A DNA stretch of 44,229 nucleotides, from IMG/VR virus record IMGVR_UViG_3300031999_000052, positions 1-44,229 of that record; one strand, written 5' to 3'. Below are positions 16,651 to 42,561 of the stretch, piece by piece (position 1 is the stretch's first letter; the number at the start of each line of letters is the position of its first letter). Source of the stretch: a virus. The translations under genes were made by a program, and so were the position numbers. Under the pieces are notes generated by a model, which saw nothing but the letters and a program-made list of their open reading frames with translations, had not been told where the DNA came from and did not search any database.

Positions 16651-16899
16651 TTAGATTATTTCATATTTTTCATTTATTATTTTATGTTTAATCAACATTT
16701 CATAAACTTTAGACGTTATTAAATTTTTTCTTTTATAATTTTCAATAATTGCCAAATTTGCTTTTGTTCGTGAAACATTTTCATTTAAAAATTTCACATT
16801 TTTATGTAAATTTTCCAATATGTCATAAAAAATCTTTTCCGATTTTTTTCTTTCAACATATTCATTTAATTGTTTTTGTGTTACTATAAATCTTTTCAT
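16651..16899 (-). CDS. Small protein with (L/I)xE leader
   Basis: 82 aa, Lys-rich and helical. The N-terminus MKRFIVTQKQLNE ends in LNE (11-13), so it fits the packaged-leader pattern with a different leader type. It starts 3 nt after the stop of the nucleotidyltransferase-like gene, so it is the last gene of the 18.5-16.7 kb operon. Function unknown. Confidence 0.7.
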   Translation of the reverse strand: MKRFIVTQKQLNEYVERKKSEKIFYDILENLHKNVKFLNENVSRTKANLAIIENYKRKNLITSKVYEMLIKHKIINEKYEII

Positions 16900-16902
16900 A
16901 AT

Positions 16903-17715
16903 CTAATCAATAAATTCATTTAAACTCAATTCCTGAGTTAAATAATCATTTTTTAACTCCATCATTTTTTCCAAATAACCAGTATTTCTTAATATCTTAA
17001 AAACCAAATTTTCCGTTGAAAATTCACCACCAGTATCAAGTCCTGATTGTCTATATTTTTTAATTTTATTTTTTAATATTTCATGCCTATTTAAAAAATC
17101 TTCTTCGCTTTTATTATCTTCCAAATCATCAATTGCATTCATTATATCTGCAGATTTTAATTGAACATTTGCGCTATCAACATTAATAATTTTTTTTGTT
17201 GGTTTTCTAATCCAATCATCTTTAACTAATGAATATGTGCCTGATGAATGATGTGGTTCTTGAAAGTCTTGAAAATACATTTCAACATCATGTCCCTTTA
17301 CTTGAATTGGAAGTTTGTTTGTCCATAATTGTTTTTTCAATTTTAAAAAATCACCCACAAATTCTTTATTTTCTGAAATTTGATTAAAATCAAGAGTTAT
17401 ATGAATATCCAAATCCGATTCTTCATTATAATTATAATTAGCCATACTGCCCGTTAATATTATATCATTATATTTAAGATTTTCAGCATTACAAAATTCA
17501 ATAAATCTTTTGGCATTCATTAATAATGTTTTTCTTACATCTGATTTTAATTTTTCATCAAATTCCCAAATAAGTGGTGATAATGTATCATGCATTTGTA
17601 TTGATGATACATCAACAGTATCTGGTTCAATAACTTCCTTTAATACATCTGAAATATTATTTCGTGACCAATATCTGCCAGACCAAAAACGTGGATTTTT
17701 TTTATTTTCTTCCAT
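16903..17715 (-). CDS. Nucleotidyltransferase-fold protein
   Basis: 270 aa. The motif ILTGSMANYNYNEESDLDIHI region (86-106) has the GS of the pol-beta nucleotidyltransferase fold and the paired Asp101/Asp103 metal ligands; VEMYF further on is the likely third-strand position. Families with this fold add nucleotides to RNA, protein or small molecules; the substrate is not evident. There is an LKE at 25-27, after a basic N-terminus, which may be a protease site. It lies in an operon between two leader-bearing genes. Confidence 0.7.
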   Translation of the reverse strand: MEENKKNPRFWSGRYWSRNNISDVLKEVIEPDTVDVSSIQMHDTLSPLIWEFDEKLKSDVRKTLLMNAKRFIEFCNAENLKYNDIILTGSMANYNYNEESDLDIHITLDFNQISENKEFVGDFLKLKKQLWTNKLPIQVKGHDVEMYFQDFQEPHHSSGTYSLVKDDWIRKPTKKIINVDSANVQLKSADIMNAIDDLEDNKSEEDFLNRHEILKNKIKKYRQSGLDTGGEFSTENLVFKILRNTGYLEKMMELKNDYLTQELSLNEFID

Positions 17716-17724
17716 TTTAAATTA

Positions 17725-18528
17725 TTATCTACTAAAATTTTGATATATATTATCATTTTTAATATCTACTGGTTGTCCTCTTGGTGTTGTTGTAGGAACT
17801 ACACGACTCATATCATAACCAAACCAACGACCAGATAAACCATCTAACCATGCCTTTGCTTCTTCTTCTGTATTATATTCTTTTGCATTTGTTGACCAAG
17901 TGTTTTCACCCGTACCCACCACTTCTGCACGATATTTAATTAATTGTTCACCTGTTGGTTCATCTTCATTAACTTGTTTTGCATAATTTTTTCCAAGTGG
18001 ATCAGGTACACTATAAGCCTCATCTTTAATTCCCCCCTTAAATCTTTTTGCTAATGCTTTACGTTTTGGCGTACATGTTGATTTAGTCATGGGTGTACAA
18101 TATCCCTTATGTTCAGGATTAATTGCATTTTGAATCCATTTTTCGTCAGATTCATTCATATTACCATGCTTTGCTTTATCCCAATTAATAACAGGAATTT
18201 TTTTTCCGACAGGTGCATCCCCTTCCTTCAATTCTTTTTTGTCTTTGTGTTCTTCTTTTTCAAAATCAGGTGGTTGCATTATATCTTCATTTTCTTCCGA
18301 TTCTTTGTCATCCTTTTTTTCGAAATTCCATTTTTTCTTACCGGAAGTTTTTTTCTTTTCTTCCTTATCTTCTTTGTCTTCCCCTTTTTTCTTAGAAATT
18401 TCTTCCTTATCTTCACCCTTTTTCTTATCAAAATTCCATTCAGTAAGAAGTTGAGCACTTGGTTTAAATGTTGGGTCTATTTTTCCCAAAACTTCGAAAA
18501 GTCTCTGTTTATTGTCTTGATTTTTCAT
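17725..18528 (-). CDS. Packaged-leader protein with Lys/Glu linker and Cys motif
   Basis: 267 aa. The leader MKNQDNKQRLFEVLGKIDPT leads to LLTE (27-30). Then comes a long Lys/Glu-rich disordered stretch (about 35-110), a conserved-looking NAINPEHKGYCTPMTKSTC segment (about 137-155, with a basic helix after it), and a C-terminal domain with YNTEEEAKAWLDGLSGRWFG. The middle segment recurs in other phage structural proteins as far as I recall. A virion or injected role is inferred from the leader. First gene of its operon, with its own late-type box. Confidence 0.75.
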   Translation of the reverse strand: MKNQDNKQRLFEVLGKIDPTFKPSAQLLTEWNFDKKKGEDKEEISKKKGEDKEDKEEKKKTSGKKKWNFEKKDDKESEENEDIMQPPDFEKEEHKDKKELKEGDAPVGKKIPVINWDKAKHGNMNESDEKWIQNAINPEHKGYCTPMTKSTCTPKRKALAKRFKGGIKDEAYSVPDPLGKNYAKQVNEDEPTGEQLIKYRAEVVGTGENTWSTNAKEYNTEEEAKAWLDGLSGRWFGYDMSRVVPTTTPRGQPVDIKNDNIYQNFSR

Positions 18529-18542
18529 AATATTAATTTTTA

Positions 18543-18552
18543 TATAAATACT
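18543..18552 (-). promoter_or_regulatory. Late-type box of the 18.5-16.7 kb operon
   Basis: Sense AGTATTTATA followed by TAAAAA, 14 nt before the ATG at 18528. Confidence 0.6.
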
Positions 18553-18554
18553 TG

Positions 18555-41253: not shown

Positions 41254-41281
41254 AAAGCGAAGTAAATCTTCGCTTTTTTTT
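41253..41281 (+). terminator. Intrinsic terminator after RNA ligase
   Basis: AAGCGAAG-TAAAT-CTTCGCTT stem followed by T run. Confidence 0.88.
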
Positions 41282-41290
41282 GTATTTATA
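41282..41290 (+). promoter_or_regulatory. Late-type box before the papain-like gene
   Basis: Sense GTATTTATA followed by ACAAA, 14 nt before the ATG at 41305. Confidence 0.58.
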
Positions 41291-41304
41291 ACAAACACCA
41301 CATT

Positions 41305-42111
41305 ATGAAAATTCTCAATAAAATACCCAATTTATTTAAAAAACGTAAAGTAAAAAAACCAGTAACGAAAAAGTTTGGTTGGAAACGTGATTTACCTGAC
41401 CACAGAGATTTAAAATTTAAAATTACAGCACCTGTCAAATTACCAACACTTGTTGATTTAAGACATTTATGCCCTTCAGTATATAGTCAAGGTAATTTAG
41501 GCAGTTGTACTGCAAATGCATTAGGTGCTGCATATCAATATGGAAAAATAAGACAAGGTAAAGACAACTTCATGCCATCAAGACTTTTCATTTATTATAA
41601 TGAAAGAGCAATGGAAGGAACAATAAATGAAGATGCAGGTGCAATGATTCGTGATGGTATTAAAACAATGATAAAAGATGGTGTTTGTCCTGAAATTATG
41701 TGGGAATATATTGAAAATAAATTTAAAACAAAACCATGTCCTCAATGCTATGAAACTGCATTAGATAATCAAATTATTGAATATTTAAGAATTACACCAC
41801 ATACATTATACGAAATTAAACATTGTCTTTCTGATGGGTATCCTGTTGTATTTGGTTTCACAATATATGAATCATTTATGTCAGAAGAAGTTGCTCGTAC
41901 AGGCATTGCACCAATACCTAATCCCAATGAATCACCAATGGGTGGTCATGCGGTTCTTGCAATTGGTTATGACGATAGTAAAGAATGCCTTATTGTAAGA
42001 AATAGCTGGGGTGTTGAATGGGGAATAAAAGGTTATTTTTATCTACCGTATTGGTACATTACAACACTAAATGCTGCAGCCGATTTTTGGACAATTAGAT
42101 TAGTTGAATAA
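41305..42111 (+). CDS. Papain-like (C1A) cysteine protease
   Basis: 268 aa. SQGNLGSCTANA (61-72) holds the nucleophile Cys68; GGHAVLAIGYDD (213-224) the catalytic His215; VRNSWGVEWG (231-240) the Asn233 of the triad. A short basic N-terminus replaces a long propeptide, and no signal peptide or (L/I)xE leader is seen. Papain-like enzymes are unusual in phages. It may act on host proteins or in virion maturation. The late-type box suggests late expression. Confidence 0.85.
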   Translation: MKILNKIPNLFKKRKVKKPVTKKFGWKRDLPDHRDLKFKITAPVKLPTLVDLRHLCPSVYSQGNLGSCTANALGAAYQYGKIRQGKDNFMPSRLFIYYNERAMEGTINEDAGAMIRDGIKTMIKDGVCPEIMWEYIENKFKTKPCPQCYETALDNQIIEYLRITPHTLYEIKHCLSDGYPVVFGFTIYESFMSEEVARTGIAPIPNPNESPMGGHAVLAIGYDDSKECLIVRNSWGVEWGIKGYFYLPYWYITTLNAAADFWTIRLVE

Positions 42112-42116
42112 TTTAT

Positions 42117-42126
42117 AGTATTTATA
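42117..42126 (+). promoter_or_regulatory. Late-type box before the 140-aa leader gene
   Basis: Sense AGTATTTATA followed by AAAAAA, 12 nt before the ATG at 42139. Confidence 0.6.
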
Positions 42127-42138
42127 AAAAATTATTAT

Positions 42139-42561
42139 ATGAAAAAAGATACAAAACAACTTCTTTTTGAAAGAATGAAAAAAGTTAATCCAGATTTTAT
42201 AATTAAAGAAGAATTAATGTCCGAAATATCAAATAATCCAAACAGATTGGATGCTACAATAAGAAAAAAAGTAAATCGTGAATTATCGGCATTACCAAAT
42301 TACCACGAAGGAATTCCAATAAATATTATTGAAAATATTTTGGAAAAATATGGATTATTAATATTACAAGAAGATAATACTGAATATGAAGGATTTTTTC
42401 TTGGCGATGAAAGTCGTACTGAAATTGCTATTGGTCACATTAATACTGCCAATCAAAAAGATAATATAACATTTTATACACCAATAGAAAATAGTATGTT
42501 AATATTGACATGGTATAAAATGGGAAGTGGTAAATACGAAATAGTTTCATACCTTTCATAA
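42139..42561 (+). CDS. Packaged-leader protein, unknown
   Basis: 140 aa. The leader KQLLFERMKKVNPDFIIKE ends in IKE (22-24). A helical segment (LDATIRKKVNRELSALP) precedes a beta-rich half (about 70-140). No domain recognised. It shares the leader type with the array at 27 kb but lies 13 kb away. Confidence 0.7.
   Translation: MKKDTKQLLFERMKKVNPDFIIKEELMSEISNNPNRLDATIRKKVNRELSALPNYHEGIPINIIENILEKYGLLILQEDNTEYEGFFLGDESRTEIAIGHINTANQKDNITFYTPIENSMLILTWYKMGSGKYEIVSYLS

Follow-up and report, generated by a model that had tools for sequence, protein, structure and literature searches.

Leader-targeted head proteins that are processed by gp21 have precedents in phage T4 (PMC9026906, PMC5694885, PMC12373910), where gp21 cuts after (L/I)xE (PMC9026906) and where Ip1-3 have only their leader in common; related phages have at least 10 such proteins, so that leader-sharing internal proteins are already a known kind (PMC12373910). 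Processing of multiple head proteins at X-x-E by a gp21-related protease has also been described for phiKZ and SPN3US (PMC5694885). Polyvalent proteins, which are multi-domain and include ART domains, are a further set for which injection together with the DNA has been predicted (Iyer et al. 2017, PMC5512222). Here, we analysed a 44,229-bp IMG/VR viral record (the window, by which we mean this whole stretch of DNA) that encodes a set of leader-bearing proteins alongside T4-type head genes.

Leader proteins and head genes of the window

The window encodes an S77 protease together with a portal and a terminase of the T4 type, and its source is a large, T4-like phage whose bacterial host probably belongs to the Bacteroidota. 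The gp21-like protease that the first-pass annotation had claimed at 675-1370 is borne out by its PF03420 and phrog_207 matches (Table 1) and by the presence of the catalytic His (DHP) and Ser (SSRG) motifs, and it aligns to the T4 gp21 structure 5jbl.

The same annotation had described a large set of proteins with short Lys-rich N-terminal leaders of two types. All of its window ORFs are present, with corrected starts at 27819, 37251 and 38566, and the set stands for twelve proteins, eight with a KQRLFE...LNE-like leader (type A) and four with an IINEE/IKEE leader (type B); 16651-16899 (MKRFIVTQKQLNEYVERKK) fits neither type and was rejected. That the leaders end in (L/I)xE holds insofar as a first site (LFE, INE or IKE) places its Glu at residue 9-13 in 12/12 proteins and a second at residue 16-31 in 11/12, with the amendment that the most conserved site of type A is LFE near residue 11, not only LNE near residue 26. 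Several of these proteins recur in relatives: those similar to 21825-22433 have type B leaders in G005, G006 and L207, an SprT-like protein similar to 37253-38116 has a type B leader in G006, and the L050 homologue of the divergent 28505-28975 has a canonical leader with INE.

Table 1. Head genes and leader proteins encoded in the window
Feature	Coordinates	Strand	Basis
S77 prohead protease (gp21 homologue), predicted processing enzyme	675..1370	-	PF03420 1.4e-17; phrog_207 head maturation protease 7.3e-36
gp22-like scaffold, N-terminal part, gene cut by contig end; start MKDDKKSIVKEAL	1..532	-	translation
T4-type portal (gp20)	7582..9591	-	PF07230 2.4e-61
Type A leader (LFE-12, LTE-30) + Lys/Glu-rich body	17725..18528	-	sequence
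Type A leader (LFE-11, LNE-23) + GP88 domain	18555..19679	-	PF17338 6.5e-20
Type B leader (INE-12) + body of no recognised family	21825..22433	-	sequence
Type B leader (INE-9) + YHGT body	24217..24876	-	sequence; homologue L327 with same leader
Type A leader (LFE-12, LQE-31) + short body	27020..27310	+	sequence
Type A leader (LFE-11, LNE-26) + domain that is third module of L072, second of L079	27314..27793	+	sequence
Type A leader (LFE-11, LNE-26) + phage-stand-alone domain, LKE/INE linker, second region	27819..28466	+	phrog_13953 2.2e-28
Type A leader, divergent (LFE-11, LKE-23) + body of no recognised family	28505..28975	+	sequence
Type A leader (LFE-11, LKE-26), DUF4313-like domain, LNE-141, second domain, INE-233	36544..37251	-	sequence and model
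Type B leader (INE-13) + SprT-like metallopeptidase domain	37253..38116	-	PF10263 9.9e-9
Type B leader (IKE-11, INE-19)	38120..38566	-	both sites kept in similar G005 and G006 proteins
Type A leader (LFE-11, IKE-24) + body of no recognised family	42139..42561	+	sequence

Other features of the window were recorded alongside. The terminase large subunit (9663-13348, minus strand) is divided between two ORFs that overlap and contain intein halves plus an endonuclease-like insert, an arrangement that resembles a fractured split-intein gene. A 1,752-aa protein (1468-6726) has an endolysin-like domain (phrog_291) at its C-terminus, one tmRNA gene (33606-33986) and 19 tRNA genes (23554-43880) are interspersed with leader genes, and a papain-like C1 peptidase (41305-42111; PF00112, 2.3e-12) lies directly upstream of the last leader gene in Table 1. 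Of the 24 contigs searched, 11 have S77 as a single long ORF of 598-652 aa. In the five that were read (L101, L102, L105, L107, L111), ~380-400 aa are inserted near the catalytic His motif; the insertion has C...N|S ends as well as LAGLIDADG-like motifs and is apparently an intein within the prohead protease.

A phage-restricted leader on unrelated bodies

Type A was searched for with a degenerate DNA pattern for KQRLFE(V/I/M)M in the 2.9 million viral contigs of IMG/VR; a corresponding pattern for type B was dropped as too unspecific. Of the 104 matches, 102 are located 2-9 codons after a start codon, and the matches comprise 53 different 24-mers in which synonymous codons vary, which places conservation and selection at the peptide level. 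In 85,000 cellular species the same pattern matched 47 times, and one of these matches is a real leader; it lies on a contig of 14 kb that was assigned to Bacteroidota. On this evidence the leader is phage-restricted. The genome is AT-rich and many proteins have an MKK start, so that Lys-rich starts might look alike by accident; N-terminal placement of an 8-residue motif in nearly all viral matches, against a single real leader among the cellular ones, leaves this next to no credibility and refutes chance similarity for type A, while weak type B members could be due to chance. The type A leader query had no match in 50,697 phage records, and no occurrence of the leader strings was found in the literature searched.

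A search with a leader profile gave ~7 and ~10 type A genes in whole relatives of 364,702 and 327,676 bp, respectively, which also have ~5 and ~6 plausible type B genes; few such leaders occur in a more distant relative, G027 (366,038 bp). Among 24 leader-bearing contigs, 22 encode gp23 and 21 encode an S77 (gp21-type) protease, and those without one or the other may be fragments. The contig that encodes a 435-aa leader protein (L339, 4696-6003) was assigned to a Bacteroidota MAG, which gives a hint as to the host.

As with T4-type capsid-targeting sequences (CTS), the short N-terminal leader is common to non-homologous proteins: bodies that follow type A leaders fall into 32 BLAST clusters with no detectable mutual similarity. 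Most bodies are unrecognised, the exceptions being GP88 and SprT-like domains in the window and ART-PolyVal, Cupin_2, AAA_33 and a sub-threshold ASCH in leader proteins of relatives. ART-PolyVal (PF18760), a known polyvalent domain, occurs in the leader protein at 97106-97579 of G006 and was absent from the window proteins in a Pfam search. The twelve window leader proteins had no T4 IP or Alt family match in Pfam or PHROGs, the IPs themselves differing mutually, and PADLOC gave no match among ten leader proteins. The YHGT body of 24217-24876, which had no Pfam or PDB match, is possibly ADP-ribosyltransferase-like, an idea that remains a lead because its single-sequence fold model is poor (pLDDT 42).

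The leader is an add-on module, as 27819-28466 shows: in mycobacteriophages, its body forms an 80-aa protein by itself. Specifically, residues 41-114 are 76% identical to Phaded gp84, the start of which coincides with the end of the leader plus linker, and the domain stands alone in Mycobacterium and Gordonia phages.

The bodies also bear on whether the leader proteins, although targeted to the prohead core and cleaved, are core or scaffold parts that serve assembly and are removed or structural, rather than injected effectors. Such a role would suit an acidic, Lys/Glu-rich leader protein that recurs with 17 members, and 17725-18528, both of which look core-like; T4 gp67 and gp68 are likewise gp21 substrates (PMC9026906, PMC5694885), and the gp22-like scaffold gene that lies between S77 and gp23 in relatives starts mostly with MKDDKKSSIIKEAL, a type-B-like segment (IIKE). 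We nevertheless regard it as unlikely, given that many bodies are enzyme domains (ART-PolyVal, SprT-like, AAA_33, cupin, GP88) and that the leader-protein repertoire differs among relatives.

Predicted cleavage sites

An (L/I)xE by itself counts for little in favour of capsid-targeting leaders on injected cargo, the reading that we prefer, as one occurs within the first 30 residues of 35% of the non-leader proteins in two relatives. At +8 to +25 after the anchor, it occurs in 24 of the 32 body clusters versus 14% of body windows, although these clusters are not independent because the leader is homologous. (L/I)NE was found in 21/28 leader proteins versus 3.7% of others, a comparison that is to some extent circular for type B, whose members were chosen by their IINEE-like motifs, and x is N at 14/28 leader sites against a genome background of 10% (p ~1.6e-7). 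Further, gp23 of the relatives has (I/L)NE in 22/22 cases, aligned with the T4 cut at LTE-65 (the site being inferred from the alignment with T4 gp23). This correspondence between the gp23 cut position and the motif preferred in leaders is the strongest link to cleavage that the sequences offer.

Likenesses to T4 extend to the leader itself. The invariant LFE near residue 11 of type A matches the T4 CTS length; T4 gp22 starts with MLKEQLIAE and T4 IPII and IPIII with MKTYQEFIAE, and the scaffold of the relatives resembles type B. A conserved LFENQ lies upstream of the cut-position site in gp23 of the relatives, and mimicry of it by the leader would be speculation. Some leaders, such as that of G006 96570-97106, are without a second site. 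Taken as a prediction, the gp21-cleavable, T4-CTS-like nature that had been claimed for the leaders is well supported by the S77 motifs, the (I/L)NE of gp23 at the T4 cut and the preference for x=N, and also by the similar scaffold start, phage restriction and add-on modularity.

Proposed tandem cargo

Additional (I/L)NE sites between and after domains mean that trimming may extend beyond the N-terminus. In multi-domain leader proteins, (L/I)NE was present at 11 of 44 fusion junctions, which take in related families and dubious junctions, versus 2.8 expected in the same proteins (p ~5e-6, an optimistic value because an earlier boundary test used the same data), and generic (L/I)xE was mildly enriched at the 44 (20 vs 13.4, p 0.011). 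The earlier test, which the fusion-junction test replaced, took all HSP ends and gave 7/67 (p 0.025), diluted by within-family breaks.

The window protein at 36544-37251 is a predicted two-module cargo polyprotein, in which the leader is followed by LKE, a DUF4313-like domain, LNE, a second domain and INE. Its AlphaFold model (ten sequences, mean pLDDT 53) has LNE-141 and INE-233 in low-confidence segments that flank the better predicted second domain, and a fold search with the model gave no significant match. L072 has three modules with INE between them, and two of these modules are found singly behind a leader in other proteins; L028, which stands alone, has LNEG as its end.

What is new here is these tandem leader proteins with (I/L)NE at their junctions, which suggest cargo polyproteins cut in the prohead. 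We put at slightly below an even chance the fuller proposal that several injected effector modules travel behind one leader and are separated inside the head by the prohead protease at (I/L)NE linkers, such that one leader loads several effectors and domain-plus-site cassettes are exchangeable.

An upstream element

TATTTAT occurs ~22-24 nt upstream of the ATG in 55/102 leader ORFs versus ~14-18% of all genes in three relatives, and, at -40 to -17 in G005 and G006 together, in 9/28 versus 96/954 (p 0.0016). It also precedes the terminase, portal and protease genes of G006. The element is a plausible late promoter, which is unproven because homing-endonuclease-like genes carry TATTTAT too. An GTATTTAT element ~22-24 nt before the start codon of many genes in G005, G006 and the window is a candidate late promoter.

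An upstream TATTTAT common to leader genes, and the frequency of (L/I)xE by chance, would also be compatible with a 5' segment that acts as a translation, transcription or recombination element, or as a tag for another compartment (tail or replication factory), its gp21-site likeness being coincidental. Varying synonymous codons, and an (L/I)NE that is the same as the gp23 site and recurs at domain junctions, make this very improbable.

Proposed mechanism and implications

We observe a common leader of an add-on kind that is restricted to phages and co-occurs with S77 and gp23; its preferred site matches the gp23 cut-site motif, and this motif is enriched at junctions. We consider it quite likely that these are capsid-targeting leaders of the T4 kind, with cargo taken into the prohead, cleaved by S77 after (L/I)xE, cut where modules are in tandem and delivered with DNA. 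For packaging, cleavage, injection and cargo function, we infer the following course. First, the leaders would bring cargo proteins that are otherwise unrelated into the core of the prohead, probably through contact with the gp22-like scaffold. Second, the S77 protease would cut the cargo after (L/I)xE, preferably (L/I)NE, in the same wave as gp23 trimming, and tandem modules joined by (I/L)NE linkers would become separate proteins in the prohead. Finally, mature cargo would stay in the head and enter the next host with DNA.

If true, a sequence tag would make it possible to read from genomes what uncultured T4-like jumbo phages inject, and to list candidate proteins for anti-defence or host takeover; the leader, which behaves as an add-on, is also a candidate cargo tag. 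Tandem cargo would add a processing logic for which we found no report for T4 in the literature searched.

Comparison with known systems

As in T4, where IPI-IPIII and Alt carry a CTS and are processed by gp21, a short N-terminal leader stands here on unrelated bodies with an (L/I)xE near residue 10. The likeness extends to the S77 protease, to a gp23 site that aligns at the same position, to the proximity of tRNA genes and, in a relative, to an ADP-ribosyltransferase domain among the cargo. However, the leaders here are unlike MKTYQEFIAE, prefer (I/L)NE and have a second conserved site, and the set is large, the window having 12 leader genes in its 44 kb and the clade 32 body clusters for type A, with tandem cargo that has sites at its junctions. 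The propeptide-bearing ejection proteins of phiKZ and SPN3US mostly have long propeptides and other P3 residues, in contrast to the short common leaders here. Polyvalent proteins, which have ART domains in common with the leader set, combine several domains in one polypeptide, in some cases with a peptidase domain of its own; the tandem domains seen here are small modules with no assigned activity, joined by predicted prohead-protease sites behind a targeting leader. The nearest named phages are Flavobacterium phage immuto and Microcystis phage Mel-JY01 (portal and protease, 34-43% identity), and gp23 of immuto has VSE at the cut position, versus (I/L)NE in the leader-bearing relatives. On the best reading of what is known here from sequence, the system would work like the T4 CTS and internal-protein system, larger and with tandem cargo.
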